Source: Streptomyces sp. NBC_01231
GTDB taxonomy: Bacteria > Actinomycetota > Actinomycetes > Streptomycetales > Streptomycetaceae
Length of the DNA: 64,000 bases
Reading direction: 5' to 3'
Assembly (NCBI GenBank): GCA_035999765.1
Contig: CP108521.1
Coordinates: 3,348,001-3,412,000, forward strand
Shown here: one piece after another, positions 53,631 to 64,000 of the stretch
Numbering within the stretch: the first letter of the stretch is position 1
Layout: every line of letters begins with the position of its first letter
Program-made: the position numbers and the translations under genes
Notes under the pieces: model-generated
Database searches by the model: none
What the model was told of the DNA's origin: nothing
The model's input: the letters and a program-made list of their open reading frames with translations, nothing else

Positions 53631-54317
53631 TCAGTCGCTGATGAGCCCTCGCCGCCGGGCCATCTCGAGACCCGCCGCTCCACGCCTGGGTGGAGTGCCT
53701 CCGCGTTTCGGTGGGCCGCCGGCGGGAGATCCGCCCGGAGCGGGCGGCACAATCCCCCGGGCCTGGCCGAACAACTCGGGACGCCGATCCTTCAGTTGTT
53801 CAGCGGCAGCGATGACGGCCTTCTCGTCAGCGTCGGGCTGGTCGTGTAGAGCACGGTCGATCAGAAGCACCGCGTCATCAAGGTCGTCCCCGGTGGCGCC
53901 GAGACCTCCGAGGGCAGCACGCCGGATGGCGGCACGCTCCCTGGCCAGGGCTTGCGCCTCGCGCGTCTCTGCCGCCCTCAGTTTCTCATCGGCGGCCTGC
54001 TCGCGGCGTTCGACCTCAGTCAGTGCGGCCTGGTCAGCGTCGCGCTTCGTGGTGATGAACTCGGTCAGCGCCTCGGAGTTGTCGAAGCCGAGGTCTCCGA
54101 GCAGCTTCTTCACGGCGGCCCGGCCGCCCTGTGTCTTCTCACGGGCCAGCAGCCGCGACAGGTCTTCCTGCATGACGCCGCCGCTCGGGACGTCTCCCTC
54201 GTCACCAGGCTTGTTGGAGTCGTCGTCGGGCGAGGCCCCGAGGATCGGATAGATCGGCCGCCCGTCACGGCGGTGCCCGACCGGTACGAACGAGTTGGGG
54301 AGTGAGGGGCGCGTCAT
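53631..54317 (-). CDS. Capsid scaffold-like protein
   Basis: The protein has 228 residues from an ATG at 54317 (an ATG at 54332 is in frame; neither has a strong ribosome-binding site). A central charged coiled coil (ALTEFITTKRDADQAALTEVERREQAADEKLRAAETREAQALARERAAIRRAAL) and disordered Pro/Gly tail are the features of phage scaffolding proteins. Its place ahead of the decoration and capsid genes fits. It is the last phage gene at the right; upstream DNA is CRISPR, so the portal and terminase are lost or elsewhere. Confidence 0.7.
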   Translation of the reverse strand: MTRPSLPNSFVPVGHRRDGRPIYPILGASPDDDSNKPGDEGDVPSGGVMQEDLSRLLAREKTQGGRAAVKKLLGDLGFDNSEALTEFITTKRDADQAALTEVERREQAADEKLRAAETREAQALARERAAIRRAALGGLGATGDDLDDAVLLIDRALHDQPDADEKAVIAAAEQLKDRRPELFGQARGIVPPAPGGSPAGGPPKRGGTPPRRGAAGLEMARRRGLISD

Positions 54318-54463
54318 GCGTGAACCATCCACAGGTCTCCAGCGCCCCCGCGCCAGTGATCAGTGTAGCGACCAGCCGGAGCCGTACGTCTTGTTGTCGG
54401 GGGTTGTCCGCACGAACCTGGGTGCGTTCGTCGTAGCTACGGCCGGCAGGCGCATGGCCTATG

Positions 54464-56945
54464 GAGAGCATCCCCGCGGATGCAGAGAGCAGCGTCGCCG
54501 TCGCATGAGCGCCGGACTGGCCTGGGGCCACCCCCGCGGGTGCGGGGAGCACTGACTCCACGCATCACGTCACGGTGCCGTTCTGGGACCATCCCCGCGG
54601 GTGCGGGGAGCAGTTGACCAGCGCCGACCACACGGAGCCGTCCGGGACCACCCCCGCAGGCGCGGGGAGCACCACGACGCTCCGACGACTGCCGGCGTCA
54701 CGGTGGGACCATCCCCGCGGGTGCGGGGAGCACGCGTTCCGTCAGGGCTACGTGACGGGCCACAAGGGACCATCCCCGGGGGTGCGGGGAGCACTTGATC
54801 GGGTCCGGTCCGGCGTAGGTCAGGCTGGGACCATCCCCGCGGGTGCGGGAAGCACGCGTCCGGTCAATTCCGGTCAGTTTCAGGCGCGGGACCATCCCCG
54901 CGGGTGCGGGGAGCACATTCTCCTTCGGCCTGCACCCGGTTGGGGTGGGGGATCATCCCCGCGGGTGCGGGGAGCACCTGTCGTCGATCGCGGTCGGCGA
55001 CCTCGTCACGGGACCATCCCCGCGGGTGCGGGGAGCACGGAGAGCATGAGGACCCCGCCGCTCTTGAGCCGGGACCATCCCCGCGGGCGCGGGGAGCACT
55101 CGACGACGTCAACCTTGTAGGGCCTGGGGATGGGACCATCCCCGCGGGTGCGGGGAGCACAGAGACTTGTTCACGGTTGTTCCCTTTCTGTAGGGACCAT
55201 CCCCGCGGGTGCGGGGAGCACCTTTCACTGACGATGCCCCAGAACACAAGCGGGGGACCATCCCCGCGGGTGCGGGAGCACGCACCGTGCGCGGCCTCGT
55301 GCAACGGCTCGAAGGGACCATCCCCGCGGGCGCGGGGAGCACCTGCTCGGCGGGGTGGGTGGCGCCATTCACCACGGACCATCCCTGCGGGCGCGGGGCG
55401 CACACCCGCTCACGGCTGGAGGCCCGTTGGATCGTGGGACCATCCCCGCGGGCGCGGGGAGCACATGACGAACTGCACGTTGATCTGCGCGGCTTCGGGA
55501 CCATCCCCGCGGGCGCGGGGAGCACGGGTGCTCAGCACGCACGAGCGTGCTTGTAGAGGGACCATCCCCGCGTGTGCGGGGAGCACGTGGATGAGTGCGG
55601 TGTCGATGCCGACGGGGTGGGACCATCCCCGCGGATGCGGGGGAGCACACCATGAAAGGCACTGCCATGTCTCCGTACCTGAGACCATCCCCGCGGGTGC
55701 GGGGAACACTGGGCGCCCGAAGGCGAGACCAACAACGTGCTGGGACCACCCCCGCGGGTGCGGGGAGCACTTCGTGATGCCGATCTAGAACGGGGACTTC
55801 TTGGGGCCATCCCCGCGGGTGCGGGGAGCACGAGGCACCGTGAAGCCCCTTTCGTTTCGTGAGGGGACCATCCCCGCGGGTGCGGGGAGCACTCAGGAAG
55901 GTGCGGCGGGAGCGTTCCATGGTTGGGACCATCCCCGCGGGTGCGGGGAGCACCTCGGTGAGGTCGTTCGCCGTTTCGAGGATCGGGGACCATCCCCGCG
56001 GGTGCGGGGAGCACGACACCCACGCGAGATCCGGATAGCCGAGCTGGGGACCATCCCCGCGGGCGCGGGGAGCACCCGTCGACCGCCAGTTACTGGACCG
56101 GGGGCGCGGGACCATCCCCGCGGGCGCGGGGAACACACCTCTTGAAGGTCCATGCTCTGGGTCGAGCCGGGACCATCTCCGCGGGCGCGGGGAGCACGAG
56201 CTCAAGCCCACCTTCGACGAGATCAACGAGGGACCCGCCGAGGTCGGGGCCATCCCCGCGGGTGCGGGGAGCACAGCGCCTTGCCCCAGCCGTCGACCTT
56301 GCCGATGGGACCATCTCCGGGGATGCGGGGAGCACTTGATCTGCAACAGGTCCACACACCCGATGGAGGGACCATCCCCGCAGGCGTGGGGAGCACACTC
56401 AGAGCCCAAGTGCCTGCTGGAGGGGCGGGGGACCATCCCCGCGAGTGCGGGGGGCACTTGGCTGCCGTGGCCGCCGATCCCCGTGCAAACGGGACCATCC
56501 CCGCGGTGCGGGGAGCACGCCGTGATCATGGACGGCTACGCGCCCAATCAGAGACCATCCCCGCGGGCGCGGGGAGCACCGCTTGCGCGTCTTGCGCGGC
56601 TCGTGCCCGTAGGGACCATCCCCGCGGGCACGGGGAGCACCGCAGGGCCACCTTGGTGTCGACGTCGGCGTGGGGACCATCCCCGCGGACGCGGGGAGCA
56701 CTCGATGTCCATCTTCCAGCGCCGGGCGAGAGCGGGACCATCCTTGCGGGCGCGGGGAGCACTCCAGCAGGTAGCCGTGCGGGCAGGCGCCGTAGGGACC
56801 ATCCCCGCTGGTGCGGGGAGCACATGATCGCATTGAAGTCCGTCTGGGAGCACTGGGGACCATCCCCGCGGAGGCAGGGAGCACGACATCGAGCTGCCGC
56901 TCAACCAGTCGTGGCGGGGACCATCCCCACCGGTGCGGGAGGAGA
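54464..56945 (-). CRISPR. Type I-E CRISPR array, 41 repeats, highly degenerate
   Basis: The repeat is 29 nt. In crRNA sense (minus strand) it begins GTGCTCCCCGCACCCGCGGG and ends GGGATGGTCCC, the actinomycete type I-E form with a GC stem. I count 41 repeats and 40 spacers. The period is 61 nt (32-nt spacers) except for one of 48 nt (56198-56245). At least half the repeats differ from the consensus: a common T/C change in the loop, 28-nt copies (55254, 56491), a 30-nt copy (55619) and broken ends (54464, 56917). Repeat polarity places the leader at the right end, although both ends are decayed. Confidence 0.95.
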
Positions 56946-57125
56946 CATCGCGGCGTTCGCAAACGCCGTTGCCGCGAGTACACGCTAGCAATGCGTCCCC
57001 ACGTCACTTGTTGGGACATGAAGATGCGTTCGAGTAGCACGGGGCCAAGAGGTAGGACTCCGCCCGTCGCAGGGCCCACTCGCACTAATCTTGTTGGCTG
57101 ACCGAACGGCATGTAGGCGGGGGAC
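56946..57125. promoter_or_regulatory. Presumed leader / divergent promoter region
   Basis: This 180-bp gap separates the array end from the start of the hydrolase-caspase operon. By repeat polarity it should hold the leader and promoter of the array, and it must also hold the promoter of the plus-strand operon. It includes a GC hairpin (GGCGTTCGCAAACGCC, 56952-56967) and a less GC-rich stretch (CACTAATCTTGTTGGC) near 57083-57098. Confidence 0.4.
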
Positions 57126-57992
57126 ATGAGCGTGGCGCGCATCGTCGGGGTACACGGCATTCGGCAGTCCATGACGTCAAAGGCGCAGCTGACGGCCGAC
57201 TGGTCCAAGGCGCTCAATCGCGGCCTGAGCCAGCTGGGCAGGCCGGACCTGCCTGCCGACGCGTTGGAACTGCCCCACTGGACGGGGCTCCTGGCAAGAG
57301 GAGCGACTCACCTCGGTCCAGAGGAGGAACCCTTTGACACGTCGGTGCCCTTGAGCGAGGAGGAAGCCGACTTCGTGGCAATGGCACTCGAGGAAGTCGT
57401 CCGCCAGGAGGACCTGGCCCGTGTGCAGCAACTGGGGCTGCAGACGCTGGGCCCGCCACAGCTCTGGCCGGCGCGTCTGACGCGCCTGGTGATGGCGTAC
57501 GACCGACGATTCCCCCGGGGAGGGGGCAAGCTCTTCGTGACGGCGATGCGTGAAGTGCGCCTTTACCTGTACGAACCCGACCTCGCCGCTCGCGTTCGGG
57601 CCTTGGTTGCCGAAGCCTTCAGCGCAAGTACCTCCGTCGTCCTCGGGCATTCACTGGGCAGCGTGATTGCTTACGACTTGTTGCGTCGGGGTGAGATCGC
57701 GCCGGAGCGAATGTCCGTGCGGACTCTTGTGACGTGCGGATCCCCCTTGGCCATCTCTTCCGTGCGGCGTGGGCTGAACATCGCCGACGGCGAGCCATTG
57801 AAGCTGCCTGGGGACGTGTCCTGGCTCAACGTCTTCGACCCGGCAGACTTCATCACCGGTGGGACGGGGCTCGGCGGCCTCTCGCCGGAGATCACCGATG
57901 CGGAAGTCAGCAACGGCGTCGGTGACCCTCACAGCGCGTTCCGCTACCTGAGGACCTCGCCGGTCGCACTCACGATCGCGGACGGCTCCTGA
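57126..57992 (+). CDS. Alpha/beta hydrolase (lipase/esterase-like), partner of caspase-NTPase
   Basis: The protein has 288 residues from an ATG at 57126 preceded by GGCGGGGG. The alpha/beta-hydrolase core is visible: VARIVGVHGIRQ (strand and oxyanion region near residue 10), VVLGHSLGSVIAYDLL (nucleophile Ser176 in GHSLGS), NVFDPADFITG (acid residue near 241) and DPHSAFRYL (probable catalytic His near 269). This fits PGAP1/lipase-like serine hydrolases. No signal peptide, so it should act in the cytoplasm, on membrane lipids or an acylated partner. The stop shares a base with the caspase start (TGATG), so the two are translationally coupled. Confidence 0.8.
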   Translation: MSVARIVGVHGIRQSMTSKAQLTADWSKALNRGLSQLGRPDLPADALELPHWTGLLARGATHLGPEEEPFDTSVPLSEEEADFVAMALEEVVRQEDLARVQQLGLQTLGPPQLWPARLTRLVMAYDRRFPRGGGKLFVTAMREVRLYLYEPDLAARVRALVAEAFSASTSVVLGHSLGSVIAYDLLRRGEIAPERMSVRTLVTCGSPLAISSVRRGLNIADGEPLKLPGDVSWLNVFDPADFITGGTGLGGLSPEITDAEVSNGVGDPHSAFRYLRTSPVALTIADGS

Positions 57993-60900
57993 TGAACCTG
58001 GGCACGGATCCGAAGAACAAGCGGCGGCTAATTGAGATCGCTGTCTCGGAGTACGGCGACGCGGATTTCAGGAAGAGCATTACCGCACAGGTCGCTGCCG
58101 TGAGGGGGTGGTGGGCCGATGAGTTGCTCGACACGGAGCGCCAGTTCGCCATTGCTGCGCCCGAGAAACTCCACAGCGTTCATGATCTTCGCAAGTTTCT
58201 GGATGAGCAGAGATTGGAGGACGCTGCCGACGACGATGCCGTAGTCGTCTACATCACCGGCCACGGGGTCAGTCGACCATCAGGCGATCACTTCCTGCTC
58301 CTGCCGGATACCTACCAGGACAGGCTTCTGGGGACGGCGTTTCAGACCGCCGACCTGATCACGCGGGTACTGGATTCCCATGCCGAACATGTCCTGGTCA
58401 TGGTCGACTCCTGCTTCTCTGGCGTCCTCCGCGAAGATCTGCTGCGCCGCCTCCAAGCACTGAGCGACACACGACGCCGACTGAAATCCCTCGTCGTCAT
58501 CTCGTCCGCCGATCGCGACGAGACTCCGCATCCGGAACAGTTCTCGCGCCTCCTCAATGCAGTTGTCGCTCGATGCAAGGCAAAAGAGTCGGGGTTCGCA
58601 GCCCCTCTCTTGAGCTTTCAGGAATTCTTCGATTCGATGATCGCCTTGTACGAGGAGGGGATCACGGCCAATGTCCAACCCCTCTGGCCGGCGGAGTCGC
58701 TGCAGAGGGACAAGGATCACCAGCAGCCCAGCCCCTGCCTCCCCAACCCCGGCTATGAGCCCCAGCGCGCACTCGTGGACAGGGCGCTCAGCGCCGTGGC
58801 CTGGAGTCCTGCCGACCTGGACTCGTACTGGGTCTCCCGCGCCTCGGGGCAGCCTTCCCACGGAGATCCCGGCTGGTACTTCACAGGCCGGACCAGCCAT
58901 ATTCGGCGCCTGATCGAGTTCGTTGAGGGCGAGGGAGGCACGCTGGTCGTCACCGGTGAGGCCGGATCGGGCAAGTCCGCGCTGCTCGCTCGCCTCGTCA
59001 CGCTAAGCGACCCGACGTTCCGGGCCAATGAGACGTACCGGCCTTTCACCAAGGCCATACCGCCAGAACTCCTCGTGCCGGAGGGCGCCATCGATGCTGC
59101 GGTGCTCGCCCGGAACACTGACGTTGACGAGCTGGCCGAGGCTCTGTACACGGCGCTTGCGGACAAGCCGACCTCCGGAGGCGGGGAGATCGGCCCGCTT
59201 GATCAGCTTCTGGACCACGTCCTGGTTACTGTCCGCCGGGAGGACCGGCCTTTGACAATCGTCGTCGACGGCGTCGATGAGGCGAGGAATCCCGTCAGGA
59301 TCGTCACCGACCTCATCCGCTTGCTGGCCGAACAGTCGACGGACGACGGACGGCCCGCCGTGCGGATGATCTTGGGCATCCGCAGTGCCCACTCAGGTGC
59401 AACTGGCCGCCTTCGCCCATCGCAGGACCGGGCATCGGATCTGCTGAACCTACTGGTCCGTTCCACGGAAGCCGACGAGCCCCTGCGGACAGACACCGAT
59501 ACCGCTGAGGATATTGCGGCCTACGTGAGGACGCTACTGAGGACCCTGTTCGATGTTTCCGGGTCCTCGGCAGGTTCGGACACCCGCAGACTGGACGAGC
59601 TGGCGGCCGTTGTGGCCCAGGAAGTGACACCGTCGTTCCTGGACGCACGTCTCGCCGTCGAGGCCCTCCACGCACGGTGCCTGCTGCCTGACCCTGACGA
59701 CTTGGATTGGCGGCGCACACTGCGCCAGGGGACGCAGAAGCTTCTGCAGCAGGACCTCGACGAGATACGACGCAACACAGACCTGCCGGCTCAGCACGTC
59801 GTGCAGGTTCTGCGGGCCACGGCTTTCGCGCAGGGGGCCGGTCTCCCGTGGGCTGAAGTGTGGCCGTGCGCGGTGAACGCGTTGGCGGGAGGTGAGATCA
59901 CCGCTCCCGAGGCTGTGATCCGGCGGGCTCGGCAGAGCCGGCTCGCAGGTTATCTGACGACTGCTGTGGAGGACGGCAGGTTCGTCTACCGCCCGATTCA
60001 TGAGCGCATCAGCGAAGTGCTGCGGGAGACGCCGCATGTCCTTCTCGGAGACGAAACGACGCCCAGCGCCCTTGAAGCGTCGACGGTGAGCCTTAGGCGA
60101 GCCCATCGGCAACTGGCCGTGGCTTTCAGCTCGCTGCAGAAAGACGGGCCGCCGCACCCATATCTGCGCCGCCACCTGATCCAGCACGCAGCGGCCGGGG
60201 GCGTGCTGAACGACCAAGTCATCACCGAGAAGTTCCTGCCCTACGAGACGAGCGGGAACGTGCGCGGTGTGCTCGGACTTCTGTCAGAGCACACCGCGGA
60301 CACGAAGCACCTCTTCGCGTGGACGCGGATCGAGCCCTTCCTCGCTGACGCGCCACCCCTCGCGCGTGCGGAAAGCCTGCGCTTTTCCATATGGGAGCCG
60401 GAGCATGCTGCTCCTTCGAGCACCCGCGACACCGCAAGTCCAGCCCTCGGGCATGTCGTGCCGAGGTGGAAGGACCTCGCAGTGCCGGGCAACGTCCTGG
60501 CACGGGAAAACGCGGCCGTCTGCTCCCTTGTGTCCTTCGCCCTGCGGGACGGGACGCCGCTGATCGCTGTGGGTGACGCAGACGGCAACGTACGTGTGTG
60601 GGACCCGTCCACCGTCACTGCGGTCGGCCCACCTATTGAGGGGCACGGGCCCTTCGCGCGGGCGCTGGCCGACGTGTCCGGTCCGGAGGGAGAGCCCCTG
60701 CTGGCCGTCGGCTGTGACCGCGGCGCTTGGACATGCGACCCACTGAGCGGCAAGAAGACACAATTGCCGGTCACGGCGTCCGTTCACGACATGGTGTCCT
60801 TCAGCAACCGGGACGGGGCGGTTCGGCTGGCGATCGGTACGTCTGAGGGACTTGTCCTTTGTGATCCGCTCGCCAGGACGGTTCTGGCCGACGGCGCGGC

Positions 60901-62407
60901 GGACGAAGGCGCCCGGGCGCGTCCGGTGAACGCACTCGCCGCCCTGGCTCTCCCCGGTGACCGCACACTCCTGGCCGTTCACGGATCAGAGGCCGTCGAG
61001 ATTCTCGACAGCGACTCTCTCGACTCGGTATGCACCGTGCCGGTCCTGGGCGAACAACTCTCTGCGCTTGCCTTGCTCGACAGACAGGGGGACAGCCCTG
61101 TGCTGGCCTTGACCACGCGACCCTCGGGAACGGTCAGATTCTGGGACGCCCTAACGGGTAGTGAACACCGGCACTGCACGATCAGGCAGTCCGCAGCCGT
61201 GCTGACGCCGTACCCCCAGCCGGGCTCAGACACCCTTCTCGCCCTCGGCGCTGATGACGGCGCCGTGCAGCTGTGGGATCCCGGCACAGGGGAGGAGATC
61301 TGCCGGTTCCCCGCCGACCACACAAGCCCGGTGACGGACCTTGCCGTTGTACGCGGTCTAGACGGCGTCCCCGTGCTGGTCTCCGGCTCGCTCGACCGAA
61401 CCGTCCGTGTCTGGAACCCGGAGGCGTGGACCCGCCGCACCGTGCAACCCTCCCGGTCGGCCGACGGAACGCGACTCGCGGTGCTGCCAAGCCGTCTCGG
61501 TCCCGCCGAGCTGGTCTCGGTTGGCCCCGACCGGAACCTCGTCGTAAGGCGGGCTGACTCGGGCGAGGTCACGCGCTCGATTTCCTTCAACCACACAGGA
61601 GTCGACGGCCCGATAACAGCCCTGGCCACGCACACAGCATCGGACGGCTCCGTGACAGTCATTGTCGGACTGCCAGACAAAACGATCGGCTGCTGGAATG
61701 GCGAATGGCGGCTCATGAAGGCTTGGACCTCGGCAGAGGACCATGCGACCGCGTTCACTACCTTTGCCGACGGTGCACGAACCGTCCTGGCCGTAGGTAC
61801 GAGCCGCGGCGCGGTGGCGTACTGCGATCTGGCGACCGGCGAGGTGCTGGGGTGGCTCCACGGCAGAGGGGACACTGGCCGAGCCGTCCGCGCGCTGGCG
61901 TACCTTCCTTTGTCGTCGGGTGGTGTTCTCGCTGTTGCCTCCGATCAAGGCGTACTGCTGTGTCACCCGTTTCACGAACCGCACGACGAATGGCCAGGCC
62001 AGATCGGCTCCGTGGAGTCTCTGGCCGTCTGTCCGGGAGACGAAGAGGGCGAGTTGTTTCTGGCAGCGGGGGGGACCGACGGCACCGTACGTCTGTGGGC
62101 GCCAGATGCTCCCGAGAGGGAGCCGTTCACGCTGACGACCCGGCACGACGGACCCGTATCCGCCCTCGGTATCGTCCGGACTGCCCAGGCCCGCCCTCAC
62201 ATCGTGAGCGCCGGCCTCAGGGACACGACCGTGCGCCTGTCAGACTCGCGCACCGGGGAAGAGGTGCTTCGCCTGATTACCGCCGCCTCCCTGACTTCCC
62301 TCAGCGTCCTGCCGCCCCACAGCGTCTCGGGCTCATCACAGCCCTTGATCGCTTTCGGTGGCCCGGCCGGGATCGCTACAGTGTCGCTGCGTCTGGGAGA
62401 GTCCTAG
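57992..62407 (+). CDS. Caspase-NTPase-WD40 conflict protein
   Basis: The protein has 1471 residues. Residues 1-220 are a caspase-like (C14) domain with the catalytic pair in VVVYITGHGVS (His91) and VLVMVDSCFSG (Cys141). A P-loop NTPase follows: TLVVTGEAGSGKSALLARL (Walker A 322-329) and LTIVVDGVDEARNP (Walker B 421-430), with a helical arm to about 800. The C-terminal 640 residues are WD40-like repeats (VGDADGNVRVWDPST; GADDGAVQLWDPGT; SGSLDRTVRVWNPE; GGTDGTVRLWAPD). In this architecture the WD40 propeller senses a trigger, the NTPase oligomerises and the caspase is the effector. Family precedents exist in STAND conflict systems. The partner hydrolase and CRISPR neighbours are unusual. Confidence 0.85.
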   Translation: MNLGTDPKNKRRLIEIAVSEYGDADFRKSITAQVAAVRGWWADELLDTERQFAIAAPEKLHSVHDLRKFLDEQRLEDAADDDAVVVYITGHGVSRPSGDHFLLLPDTYQDRLLGTAFQTADLITRVLDSHAEHVLVMVDSCFSGVLREDLLRRLQALSDTRRRLKSLVVISSADRDETPHPEQFSRLLNAVVARCKAKESGFAAPLLSFQEFFDSMIALYEEGITANVQPLWPAESLQRDKDHQQPSPCLPNPGYEPQRALVDRALSAVAWSPADLDSYWVSRASGQPSHGDPGWYFTGRTSHIRRLIEFVEGEGGTLVVTGEAGSGKSALLARLVTLSDPTFRANETYRPFTKAIPPELLVPEGAIDAAVLARNTDVDELAEALYTALADKPTSGGGEIGPLDQLLDHVLVTVRREDRPLTIVVDGVDEARNPVRIVTDLIRLLAEQSTDDGRPAVRMILGIRSAHSGATGRLRPSQDRASDLLNLLVRSTEADEPLRTDTDTAEDIAAYVRTLLRTLFDVSGSSAGSDTRRLDELAAVVAQEVTPSFLDARLAVEALHARCLLPDPDDLDWRRTLRQGTQKLLQQDLDEIRRNTDLPAQHVVQVLRATAFAQGAGLPWAEVWPCAVNALAGGEITAPEAVIRRARQSRLAGYLTTAVEDGRFVYRPIHERISEVLRETPHVLLGDETTPSALEASTVSLRRAHRQLAVAFSSLQKDGPPHPYLRRHLIQHAAAGGVLNDQVITEKFLPYETSGNVRGVLGLLSEHTADTKHLFAWTRIEPFLADAPPLARAESLRFSIWEPEHAAPSSTRDTASPALGHVVPRWKDLAVPGNVLARENAAVCSLVSFALRDGTPLIAVGDADGNVRVWDPSTVTAVGPPIEGHGPFARALADVSGPEGEPLLAVGCDRGAWTCDPLSGKKTQLPVTASVHDMVSFSNRDGAVRLAIGTSEGLVLCDPLARTVLADGAADEGARARPVNALAALALPGDRTLLAVHGSEAVEILDSDSLDSVCTVPVLGEQLSALALLDRQGDSPVLALTTRPSGTVRFWDALTGSEHRHCTIRQSAAVLTPYPQPGSDTLLALGADDGAVQLWDPGTGEEICRFPADHTSPVTDLAVVRGLDGVPVLVSGSLDRTVRVWNPEAWTRRTVQPSRSADGTRLAVLPSRLGPAELVSVGPDRNLVVRRADSGEVTRSISFNHTGVDGPITALATHTASDGSVTVIVGLPDKTIGCWNGEWRLMKAWTSAEDHATAFTTFADGARTVLAVGTSRGAVAYCDLATGEVLGWLHGRGDTGRAVRALAYLPLSSGGVLAVASDQGVLLCHPFHEPHDEWPGQIGSVESLAVCPGDEEGELFLAAGGTDGTVRLWAPDAPEREPFTLTTRHDGPVSALGIVRTAQARPHIVSAGLRDTTVRLSDSRTGEEVLRLITAASLTSLSVLPPHSVSGSSQPLIAFGGPAGIATVSLRLGES

Positions 62408-62568: not shown

Positions 62569-63465
62569 TCACCCAGCCACGCGCATACGTGAGACCGCAT
62601 CCCTTGCGTGGGACCGCGCTCGCTCCGTCATCGCCTCCAAGGTGTCGTAAGGCGACGCGAAGCCGCGAGAAGCGTCCCCGCGGGAAAGGCCGTTGCTTTG
62701 GGAGACCAAACGACCGAAAGCGGTCAGACGATTGGGATCGGTTGGCCCGATCAGGTGGGGAAGCCTCCTTGCGTCGATGCCGACATGGTGGGCGACGGCA
62801 TCGACCATCGCGATCCGGACCGCATCCCAGGCGGGACCGCCGGTCGCCCGGTAGGCCTTGGCGACAGTGTCGGCGTGCAGAACGTCAGCGCCGTGCCGGT
62901 TGAGCGCATAGGCGGCCGAGTAGAGGCCTTGGTGGTTCTGATCGCGGCACCGCTCACCGTCGACGTACCCCACGCAGTTGCAACCGATCAGCCGTGGCAG
63001 CACCGCTGCCGTAAGGTGCTCCGGATCCGCATGACGGACCCGGGCTGCGGACCGTGGCAGCGGAAGCCCTGCCCGCAGGGCCTGCTCCTGCCACTCCGCG
63101 CGAGCCCTGTCCAATGCGGGAGATAACCGTTGCATCGCACCGAAGGCAGCCATGTGTGCTGGGCTGGCGTGACCGAGACGACTCACCCCCGCCAAGGAGG
63201 CGGCCGCCAGGCGGGCGCTCGGCTCGTCCTTGGCCGCGAAAGCCTTCGTGAGGTCGGTGCGTTGCTCTGGGCTCAGCACCTGTTCCCACAGTTCGAGCAT
63301 CACGGAAGCAGCGGTGAGCATCTCAACGATGAGCGGATTCCACACGCGTCCTGTGAGATCGATCGTCCCCCAACACCATTTATACGCACTACTGTTGAGT
63401 TCTGCTGATTCATTCACATTGCCCTCATCCGGCGTGCTACGGTCCTGCCGCATCTCATCAGACAA
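62569..63465 (-). CDS. Unrecognised protein divergent from cse1
   Basis: The protein has 298 residues if the TTG at 63465 is used. A GTG at 63417 with GAGGG upstream is a better-supported start and gives 282. It is helical, with a conserved-looking N-terminus (SSAYKWCWGTIDLTGRVWNPLIVEMLTAASVMLELW) and a central Cys-containing segment (RLIGCNCVGYVDGERCRDQNHQGLYSAAYALN). I know no family. It faces away from cse1 with a short shared upstream region, so it may control or accompany the cas genes. Confidence 0.5.
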   Translation of the reverse strand: MSDEMRQDRSTPDEGNVNESAELNSSAYKWCWGTIDLTGRVWNPLIVEMLTAASVMLELWEQVLSPEQRTDLTKAFAAKDEPSARLAAASLAGVSRLGHASPAHMAAFGAMQRLSPALDRARAEWQEQALRAGLPLPRSAARVRHADPEHLTAAVLPRLIGCNCVGYVDGERCRDQNHQGLYSAAYALNRHGADVLHADTVAKAYRATGGPAWDAVRIAMVDAVAHHVGIDARRLPHLIGPTDPNRLTAFGRLVSQSNGLSRGDASRGFASPYDTLEAMTERARSHARDAVSRMRVAG

Positions 63466-63490: not shown

Positions 63491-64000
63491 GTGCCACTGA
63501 CCGAAATACGTCCGTCTCCGGCGGGGGAGTTACGTCCCCGCTGGGACCCACGACGACAAGCATGCGTCCCGGCACTGACAACCGCCGGGCAAAGCACCTC
63601 AGTCAGCCTGGTGCACGCACTGCGGCACGCGGACGATCTGGTCGGCATCTCAGGAACGACCGCAGGAGAAGCCGTCGCGCTGCTGGAGTACCTCCTCGCT
63701 GTCTGCTATGCCTCCGGGGACTGCCCGGCGACGGTCGACGACTGGCTCGACTGGGTGTACAGCAACAGCTCGCTGACCGGTGCCGCCGACTGGCTGGACA
63801 GCCGTCCCGATGATCACTGGGACCTCTTCCACCCCACAGAGCCGCTGGGGCAGAACGCTCTGCTTGCTCCCTACATCGACGAGCATGGAGCTGGTCCCGC
63901 CCAGCTGGTGATCGAATACGCCGGGGACTACAACCAATTTTTCGACCATCACCACCTTGAGCATCCGACCCCGCTGCCTGCCGACGCAGCCTTCCGCGCG
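63491..64000 (+). CDS. casA: Type I-E Cascade large subunit Cse1/CasA, N-terminal part
   Basis: The reading frame opens at a GTG (63491; GGAG 10 nt upstream) and continues without stop for 170 codons past the window end. The sequence VPLTEIRPSPAGELRPRWDP..., DWLDSRPDDHWDLFHPTEPLGQNALL and DYNQFFDHHHLEHPTPLPADAAFRA matches the N-terminal domain of actinobacterial Cse1 (the F-DHH...P..L...AA pattern). Cse1 recognises the PAM in target DNA within Cascade and recruits Cas3. No cas3 lies upstream, where it often is in type I-E operons. Confidence 0.8.
   Translation, partial: MPLTEIRPSPAGELRPRWDPRRQACVPALTTAGQSTSVSLVHALRHADDLVGISGTTAGEAVALLEYLLAVCYASGDCPATVDDWLDWVYSNSSLTGAADWLDSRPDDHWDLFHPTEPLGQNALLAPYIDEHGAGPAQLVIEYAGDYNQFFDHHHLEHPTPLPADAAFRA

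Follow-up and report, generated by a model that had tools for sequence, protein, structure and literature searches.

A hydrolase–caspase operon as the candidate effector half of a nuclease-free type I-E CRISPR cassette in Streptomyces

What does an operon that joins a serine hydrolase to a caspase-type peptidase do inside a type I-E CRISPR locus? We examined this question in a 64,000-nucleotide stretch of the Streptomyces sp. NBC_01231 genome (contig CP108521.1, positions 3,348,001 to 3,412,000; hereafter the window), where a gene for an alpha/beta-hydrolase and one for a 1471-residue caspase-STAND-WD40 protein lie beside Cascade genes (Table 1). Our analyses identified the hydrolase, the caspase-STAND-WD40 protein, a Cas3''-like protein, and Cse1-Cse2-Cas7-Cas5-Cas6 as one conserved mobile unit. 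We favor a reading, with a probability of roughly 55%, that casts the operon as the effector half of a type I-E variant without a nuclease, such that target binding would license the caspase and its lipase-like partner for abortive defence.

The unity of the cassette is evident from the six loci with an HD-only Cas3'' that were read directly (our own counted), all of which show the order hydrolase, caspase-STAND-WD40, Cas3'' (opposite strand), and cse1-cse2-cas7-cas5-cas6, with identical gene order and strands on different replicons and between different flanks. This bears out the assignment of the pair to the CRISPR cassette, and it contradicts the view that the operon is unrelated to CRISPR and the two are chance neighbours in a defence island, which we regard as extremely unlikely even though this Cas3'' is absent from the surroundings of most homologous pairs. 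Of 295 Streptomyces genomes, 124 contained matches to the hydrolase and 141 to the caspase domain, and at 43 of the best 60 hydrolase places a caspase match lay within 6 kb, in tandem or divergently; only three of those 43 places adjoin the Cas3'' gene (the count took the first 60 hydrolase and the first 72 caspase rows, two rows from genome G091 being terminal copies of one locus). A preliminary description of this DNA had held the pair to be locked to type I-E, which these counts do not bear out. It had also named homologs usually found apart from CRISPR as a reason to abandon its view; this is the situation in the family as a whole, but not among genes with an HD-only neighbour. Among 20 fetched hydrolase loci, in which the proximity of other pairs to ordinary CRISPR loci was judged, 16 had an adjoining caspase domain and two had these cas genes. 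HD-only Cas3, in turn, occurred in 3 of the 295 genomes, all three with the pair, and for 26 of 41 HD-only clusters a hydrolase and/or caspase match is placed on the same contig by a proxy drawn from partial lists (78 of 120 listed hydrolase matches, out of 175 in total, and 58 of 116 caspase matches).

A hydrolase tree, built from 91 sequences of 241-319 aa among the first 98 hydrolases listed, the window's own, and three from loci, placed 21 of the 22 CRISPR-linked members in one clade of 35 (support 86), with support of 99 for 34 rows that include 20 of them; 18 of the 22 labels rest on the proxy. The likely source of the pair is a stand-alone module that is common in Streptomyces, and a single recruitment is perhaps the simplest reading of this tree.

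What had been described for the operon itself was confirmed. The hydrolase frame is present with Ser176 inside GHSLGS, it overlaps the next frame (57992-62407, + strand) at TGATG (57990-57994) in one operon, and the 1471-residue product combines a caspase-type N-terminus with NTPase and WD40 matches. The two residues proposed for the caspase, His91 and Cys141, were retained in 115 (the remaining row being a gap) and 116, respectively, of 116 listed homologs, and both were present in all 22 CRISPR-linked caspase proteins in the alignment; the Walker Lys (Lys328) was likewise kept in 116/116. While the AAA_16, nSTAND1, and WD40 models exceeded their Pfam cut-offs, NF047832 matched the N-terminus (E=9.9e-16) with 57.9 bits against a curated cut-off of 140, which leaves the protein outside the EACC1-caspase system as that model defines it, and PADLOC gave no match for it. 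In the hydrolase, Ser176, Asp241, and His269 were kept in 121/121 aligned sequences and, judged by this conservation, probably form the catalytic triad; the AlphaFold2 model has the alpha/beta-hydrolase fold with a nucleophile elbow. No hydrolase family in Pfam, NCBIfam, or PADLOC was matched above its cut-off (a PGAP1-like Pfam match at E=6e-4 fell below), and PDB sequence searches returned no convincing relative of either protein. The structural neighbours of the model are lipases, esterases, and thioesterases alike; the predicted enzyme is lipase-like and might damage membrane lipids, as had been proposed. Rfam had no match across the window.

The operon does lie between a CRISPR array (ending at 56945) and the cas genes, as had been stated, and the distance given to cse1, about 1.1 kb, is sound (its start near 63491 is 1.08 kb past the operon), but the gap is not empty: it holds a divergent gene for the Cas3''-type protein. 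The Cascade set that follows is that of type I-E, all five genes being co-linear with loci that NCBI annotates as I-E; for the part of Cse1 inside the window, Pfam and PADLOC models matched, and NCBIfam remained below cut-off on that part. A canonical type I-E locus would also carry a Cas3 helicase-nuclease with an intact HD site and cas1-cas2. Here the HD motif is gone, no helicase was found in the cassette, and neither cas1 nor cas2 was called from the open reading frames between 54.4 and 70.7 kb.

The HD motif was lost in all 41 HD-only Cas3'' sequences found (own included; the search returns only proteins 0.55-1.75 times the query length), whereas it was retained in 5/5 full-length Cas3 proteins compared. 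The predicted structure of our Cas3'' matched only Cas3 at E 0.001 (18/18). Judged by this model, the protein keeps the Cas3 HD fold; its HD motif and additional catalytic positions are gone, a comparison that excluded the RHE and HH columns, where the alignment is unsure. HD-only proteins were known earlier, as implied by the PADLOC model for a Cas3'' with the HD domain only and the helicase absent. A family search of 297 genomes, read as far as the six next-best matches, found no further HD-only genes: the motif is intact in all six, one of which sits in a 571-aa frame.

These data bear on whether a full-length Cas3 encoded elsewhere performs ordinary I-E interference in trans, with the HD-only protein as a remnant or regulator. 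Our own genome does contain a Cas3 in a 993-aa frame at 10.99 Mb; however, one Streptomyces I-E Cas3 query found no other Cas3 in the host genomes G201 (a draft) and G052, and the dead HD protein, which shares 52-90% identity with the other 40 sequences and has many invariant positions, is conserved in a manner unlike a decaying remnant. We consider interference in trans very unlikely.

We next consider whether the cassette still recognizes phages. The array 1 repeat, read as CRISPR RNA (crRNA), is GTGCTCCCCGCACCCGCGGGGATGGTCCC, transcribed leftwards, an orientation given by the repeat handle and by AAC as the protospacer-adjacent motif (PAM) 5' of protospacers; since the PAM side fixes the direction, both own arrays read away from the cas genes. 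With 29-nt repeats, 32-nt spacers (62 of 72), and an AAN-type PAM, the arrays are those of canonical type I-E. Spacers from these arrays, an array of strain NRRL B-24085, and two array pieces of strain NBC_01591 were compared with 50,697 phage records (15 of 25 records being examined in one comparison), counting the same phage or near relatives with the same match once. Among the matches listed, seven protospacers aligned without gaps over 32 nt with 28-29 identities, all in Streptomyces phages: (i) the AbbeyMikolon portal, Gilgamesh gp147, the OnionKnight holin, and ZL12 gp50 for our own arrays, and (ii) the Gilgamesh terminase, the OnionKnight terminase, and the TurkishDelight capsid (first 32 nt of a 38-nt spacing) for NRRL B-24085. 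AAC lies directly upstream of 6/7 of them, and of 3/4 for our own arrays. With AA at 2-3% in the phage DNA examined, the chance of 6/7 is 6e-10 to 5e-9 (1e-7 were AA at 5%). For the I-E system of S. avermitilis, too, the PAM has been reported as AAN, according to the accessible parts of PMC12231136.

Other candidate matches were rejected or left out: RosaAsantewaa (begins within the repeat, gapped), two Erwinia records (repeat), Piccadilly, Ignacio, and Cumberbatch (aligned to the repeat), Gordonia phages Jalebi and Sampudon (only the last 25 nt of the spacer), and Citromicrobium, Myxococcus Mx4, Salmonella, and Escherichia records (E 0.06-0.8). The Streptomyces sanglieri phages Piccadilly (L086 23-175) and Cumberbatch (L108 194-453) themselves carry three and about five type I-E-like repeats, spaced ∼50-61 nt apart in a region where few genes are annotated, which may be a phage-borne mini CRISPR array or a repeat decoy.

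A cassette without an active nuclease whose spacers match phages with an AAC PAM could also silence, in that crRNA-guided Cascade would block phage genes uncut, the caspase and hydrolase being an independent travelling defence unit. Nuclease-free action through blocked transcription is described for type IV-A in the available text of PMC12669027. This explanation, which we rate as distinctly unlikely, leaves unexplained both the retention of the Cas3''-type protein in 6/6 directly read loci and the large STAND-like NTPase beside the cas genes in most related Cse1 loci (below).

Table 1. Features of the cassette and its borders (positions in the window; extended coordinates run beyond its end).
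Feature	Position	Strand	Basis
Head scaffolding gene of ZL12-like prophage	53631..54332	-	Comparison with ZL12
Array 1: 41 type I-E-like 29-nt repeats, mostly 32-nt spacers	54464..56945	-	Repeat scan, up to 9 mismatches
Presumed leader/divergent promoter between array 1 and hydrolase gene	56946..57125	.	Inferred from position only
Alpha/beta-hydrolase gene, lipase-like product (predicted), 288 aa	57126..57992	+	Invariant Ser176, Asp241, His269
Caspase-type peptidase domain of 1471-aa protein, residues 1-290 (His91, Cys141)	57992..58861	+	NF047832 match, homolog conservation
STAND/AAA NTPase region, residues ∼297-860, Walker A GEAGSGKS	58880..60568	+	AAA_16 E=6e-13, nSTAND1 E=1.4e-6
WD40 beta-propeller region, residues ∼860-1471, plus stop codon	60569..62407	+	Pfam
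HD-only Cas3''-like protein of 298 aa without helicase; pseudo-HD, its nuclease residues lost	62569..63465	-	PADLOC Cas3HD E=5e-106
cse1/cas8e	63491..64000 in window, to 65077 beyond	+	Pfam, PADLOC
cse2, cas7, cas5, cas6	After cse1, reaching 68583 (extended)	+	
Array 2: 33 repeats	68599-70573 (extended)	+	Repeat scan
Portal gene on other side of cassette	70695-73370 (extended)		

How, then, might phage recognition reach the operon? Because the cassette lacks an active Cas3 nuclease and no other Cas3 was found in two of the three host genomes, placing the caspase-STAND protein downstream of Cascade is the most economical reading; to this extent the earlier proposal that the WD40 and caspase parts respond to Cascade action stands, while its signalling steps are ones that we infer. 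In the scheme we propose, Cascade would bind phage DNA; the dead Cas3'' would dock on target-bound Cascade at the usual Cas3 site and report the R-loop to the WD40/STAND protein; the latter would assemble in an ATP-dependent, apoptosome-like manner and switch on the caspase; the caspase would cleave and activate its lipase-like neighbour or some other target; and cell death or growth arrest would come before phage release. Caspase action on the hydrolase is suggested by analogy with the protease-activated partners of Canu, Hachiman, and AVAST, as presented in the accessible parts of PMC12799240. The full picture, a DNA-guided bacterial apoptosome in which type I CRISPR has proteolysis as its output through a dead Cas3 adaptor and travels as prophage or plasmid cargo against competing phages, is one we put forward tentatively.

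STAND NTPases often sense phage proteins directly. The caspase and hydrolase could accordingly guard the CRISPR complex, being kept quiet by Cascade or Cas3'' until a phage disables the complex (anti-CRISPR) or a phage protein reaches the WD40 sensor. Since many pairs occur without this CRISPR set, sensing by the STAND-WD40 protein alone is probably possible, and a Cas3'' retained without its active site could serve as a tether. However, a guarded Cascade should have a working nuclease output, whereas the cassette has none and G201 and G052 yielded no other Cas3, and we judge a guard role unlikely.

Several observations weigh against our preferred reading of Cascade-licensed cell death. Taken one by one, the spacer matches carry little weight (E 0.008 to 0.2), the ZL12 protospacer carries GCC instead of AAC, and the two NBC_01591 array pieces gave no match within a spacer, 12 records being matched outside the repeat runs instead. 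By the proxy, 15 of the 41 HD-only clusters lack a hydrolase or caspase match, although two of them, P0029 and P0031 (the latter 98.9% identical to an S. acidiscabies protein), do carry the pair on direct reading. On the hydrolase tree, the CRISPR-linked label needs 13 changes (20.1 with shuffled labels), eight of them forced by the starred branches, only 21 rows in the clade of 35 bear it, the other 14 having no assigned context, and the labelled P0095 falls outside. Further, the full-length Cas3 of our own genome could act in trans, stand-alone pairs suggest that the STAND-WD40 protein works without Cascade, and contact of Cascade or Cas3'' with the caspase protein, like cleavage of the hydrolase, is so far a prediction. 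Finally, the leader-side decay of array 1, the decay of array 2 throughout, and the fact that no cas1 or cas2 was called in the cassette indicate that the system may be ageing.

From the leader outwards, mismatches per repeat by thirds are 3.0, 1.8, and 1.2 in array 1, and in both this array (56169-56945) and the NRRL B-24085 array (L048 15355-15985) the leader-side repeats are the most decayed, opposite to what is usual. In array 2 (3.0, 4.6, and 2.5), no such trend is clear. Array 2 contains one exact spacer duplication (69056-69087 and 69838-69869, extended coordinates) and a 26-nt stretch common to two spacers (68628 and 68873, likewise extended). No spacer match longer than 21 nt was found outside the arrays in the part of our own genome examined for self-targeting, the whole genome not being searched.

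Each half of the cassette has known counterparts. The available text of two papers (PMC12231136 and PMC8730458, citing Shmakov 2018) describes a derived I-E of Streptomyces with a STAND NTPase, for which a cell-death role was proposed; it comprises cas5, cas6, cas7, and cas8 with no Cas3 and no array (PMC8730458) and has small membrane proteins alongside (PMC12231136). Our locus is alike in genus, in a Cascade without adaptation genes, and in a neighbouring STAND-type NTPase, but differs in having two arrays with phage-matching spacers and a retained dead Cas3'', and in a caspase fused to STAND-WD40 and accompanied by a hydrolase. A scan of genome contigs with a Cse1 alignment gave nine loci, of which two (NRRL B-24085 and S. 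acidiscabies) carry the hydrolase, the caspase-STAND-WD40 protein, and Cas3'', while neither hydrolase nor caspase was found in the other seven (L050-L056; L050 and L051 break off early at contig ends). Each of these seven has a 1.2-1.35-kaa protein by its cas genes, which matched NACHT/AAA-type models below curated cut-offs in six cases and had no Pfam match at E 0.001 in L054. In six of the seven, no Cas3 was found in the stretch examined, and these six fit the described derived I-E better than our own locus does. Judged by their genes, the sister loci look like the STAND-linked derived I-E of PMC8730458, and the STAND slot may be constant in this Cse1 group, with a variable effector.

Caspase–hydrolase pairs are similarly on record: in the accessible parts of Kaur et al. 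2020 (PMC7159879), the caspase of VMAP (MoxR-vWA) systems always has an alpha/beta-hydrolase neighbour, and such pairs also occur in GAP1-N1 NTP-dependent conflict systems, mostly in multicellular prokaryotes. A caspase domain with an adjoining alpha/beta-hydrolase gene is thus common to both, but the platform there is VMAP/vWA-MoxR or a GTPase and here STAND-WD40 with a type I-E Cascade; our reading of the frames between 54.4 and 70.7 kb called no candidate for a VMAP/vWA-MoxR or GAP1-N1/GTPase core. In Canu and other gated nuclease–protease pairs, a protease activates a co-encoded proenzyme, as shown for caspase and nuclease in KaeCanABC (available text of PMC12799240). The Canu partner, however, is a metallo-beta-lactamase-fold nuclease, and no crRNA guides it. 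Craspase, in which type III-E Cas7-11 is joined by a caspase-like peptidase, shares with our proposal the crRNA-guided control of a caspase-type peptidase, whose substrate is activated by cleavage, but it is a type III single-protein RNA-targeting effector without Cascade, STAND-WD40, or a lipase-like partner. The I-E2 and I-F4 HNH variants and the CRISPR-associated transposons are type I systems that dropped or lost Cas3 for another output, according to parts of PMC12669027, namely a fused HNH nuclease or, alternatively, a transposase. While derived Streptomyces I-E with STAND and caspase–hydrolase pairs are each known already, their union looks like a new variant of type I-E. The combination is not listed in the main-text parts of the 2025 classification (PMC12669027), and the accessible portions of the literature searched hold no description of it, of the dead Cas3'', or of the variant's arrays and phage guides, though Shmakov 2018 and Makarova 2020 may already show such loci.

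The flanks of the cassette are phage head genes: the terminase and portal genes lie on its right, those for scaffold, decoration, and major capsid on its left. Streptomyces phage ZL12 has the terminase nearest to ours (58.8%), and all 10 prophage proteins tested match ZL12 in conserved order. Because the ZL12 genes that match portal and scaffold are 17 bases apart and the gene order is shared, the 16-kb cassette sits in the head-gene junction of a ZL12-like prophage. Genes of this prophage lie at 9010-54332 of the window and in L002 8695-19807, and include tape measure, endolysin, and ParB genes. Relatives of the cassette lie on plasmids in NBC_01591, NBC_01460, and NBC_00111 (the last two near-identical); in S. 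acidiscabies the contig concerned is 5 Mb long, and in NRRL B-24085 it is 68 kb. The S. acidiscabies cas7 (L049 12559-14020) is split by a transposase-like gene, and that copy is probably silent. Viral contigs scanned with the Cse1 alignment for free phages carrying the cassette gave 55 pattern matches, none confirmed.

With one Cas1 model, the sole match in our own genome lies ∼12 kb left of the window, and G052 had none. That stretch (L066, G000:C1:3335000-3337500) has a Cas1 gene that is short (249 aa as called), perhaps also cas2, and, by eye, repeats resembling those of CRISPR, and may be what is left of a second I-E locus. In NRRL B-24085, cas1 and, by eye, cas5/cas6-like genes lie ∼14 kb past the array. 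Near the chromosome end, our genome carries a paralogous hydrolase-caspase-STAND-WD40 pair without these cas genes (L019 9906-15229, G000:C1:11026906 on), with 44-53% identity in the hydrolase, caspase, and STAND parts and 36% in WD40, 30 kb from the full-length Cas3 gene.

The accepted endpoint of type I CRISPR is the degradation of DNA or, in derived forms, transposition, HNH cutting, or silencing. The cassette described here has kept the phage-recognising part and seems to have lost the DNA-cutting enzyme, and phage recognition may trigger cell suicide in place of DNA cutting. If true, this would tie the RNA-guided immunity of type I directly to programmed cell death, in a way that resembles an apoptosome. 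For the derived Streptomyces I-E with STAND, the 2025 review, in its available parts, reports no experimental evidence of a cell-death system (PMC12231136). Since three phages targeted by native spacers (AbbeyMikolon, Gilgamesh, and OnionKnight) have S. lividans JI 1326 as their recorded host, the cell-death proposal becomes directly testable with existing phages and this laboratory host.

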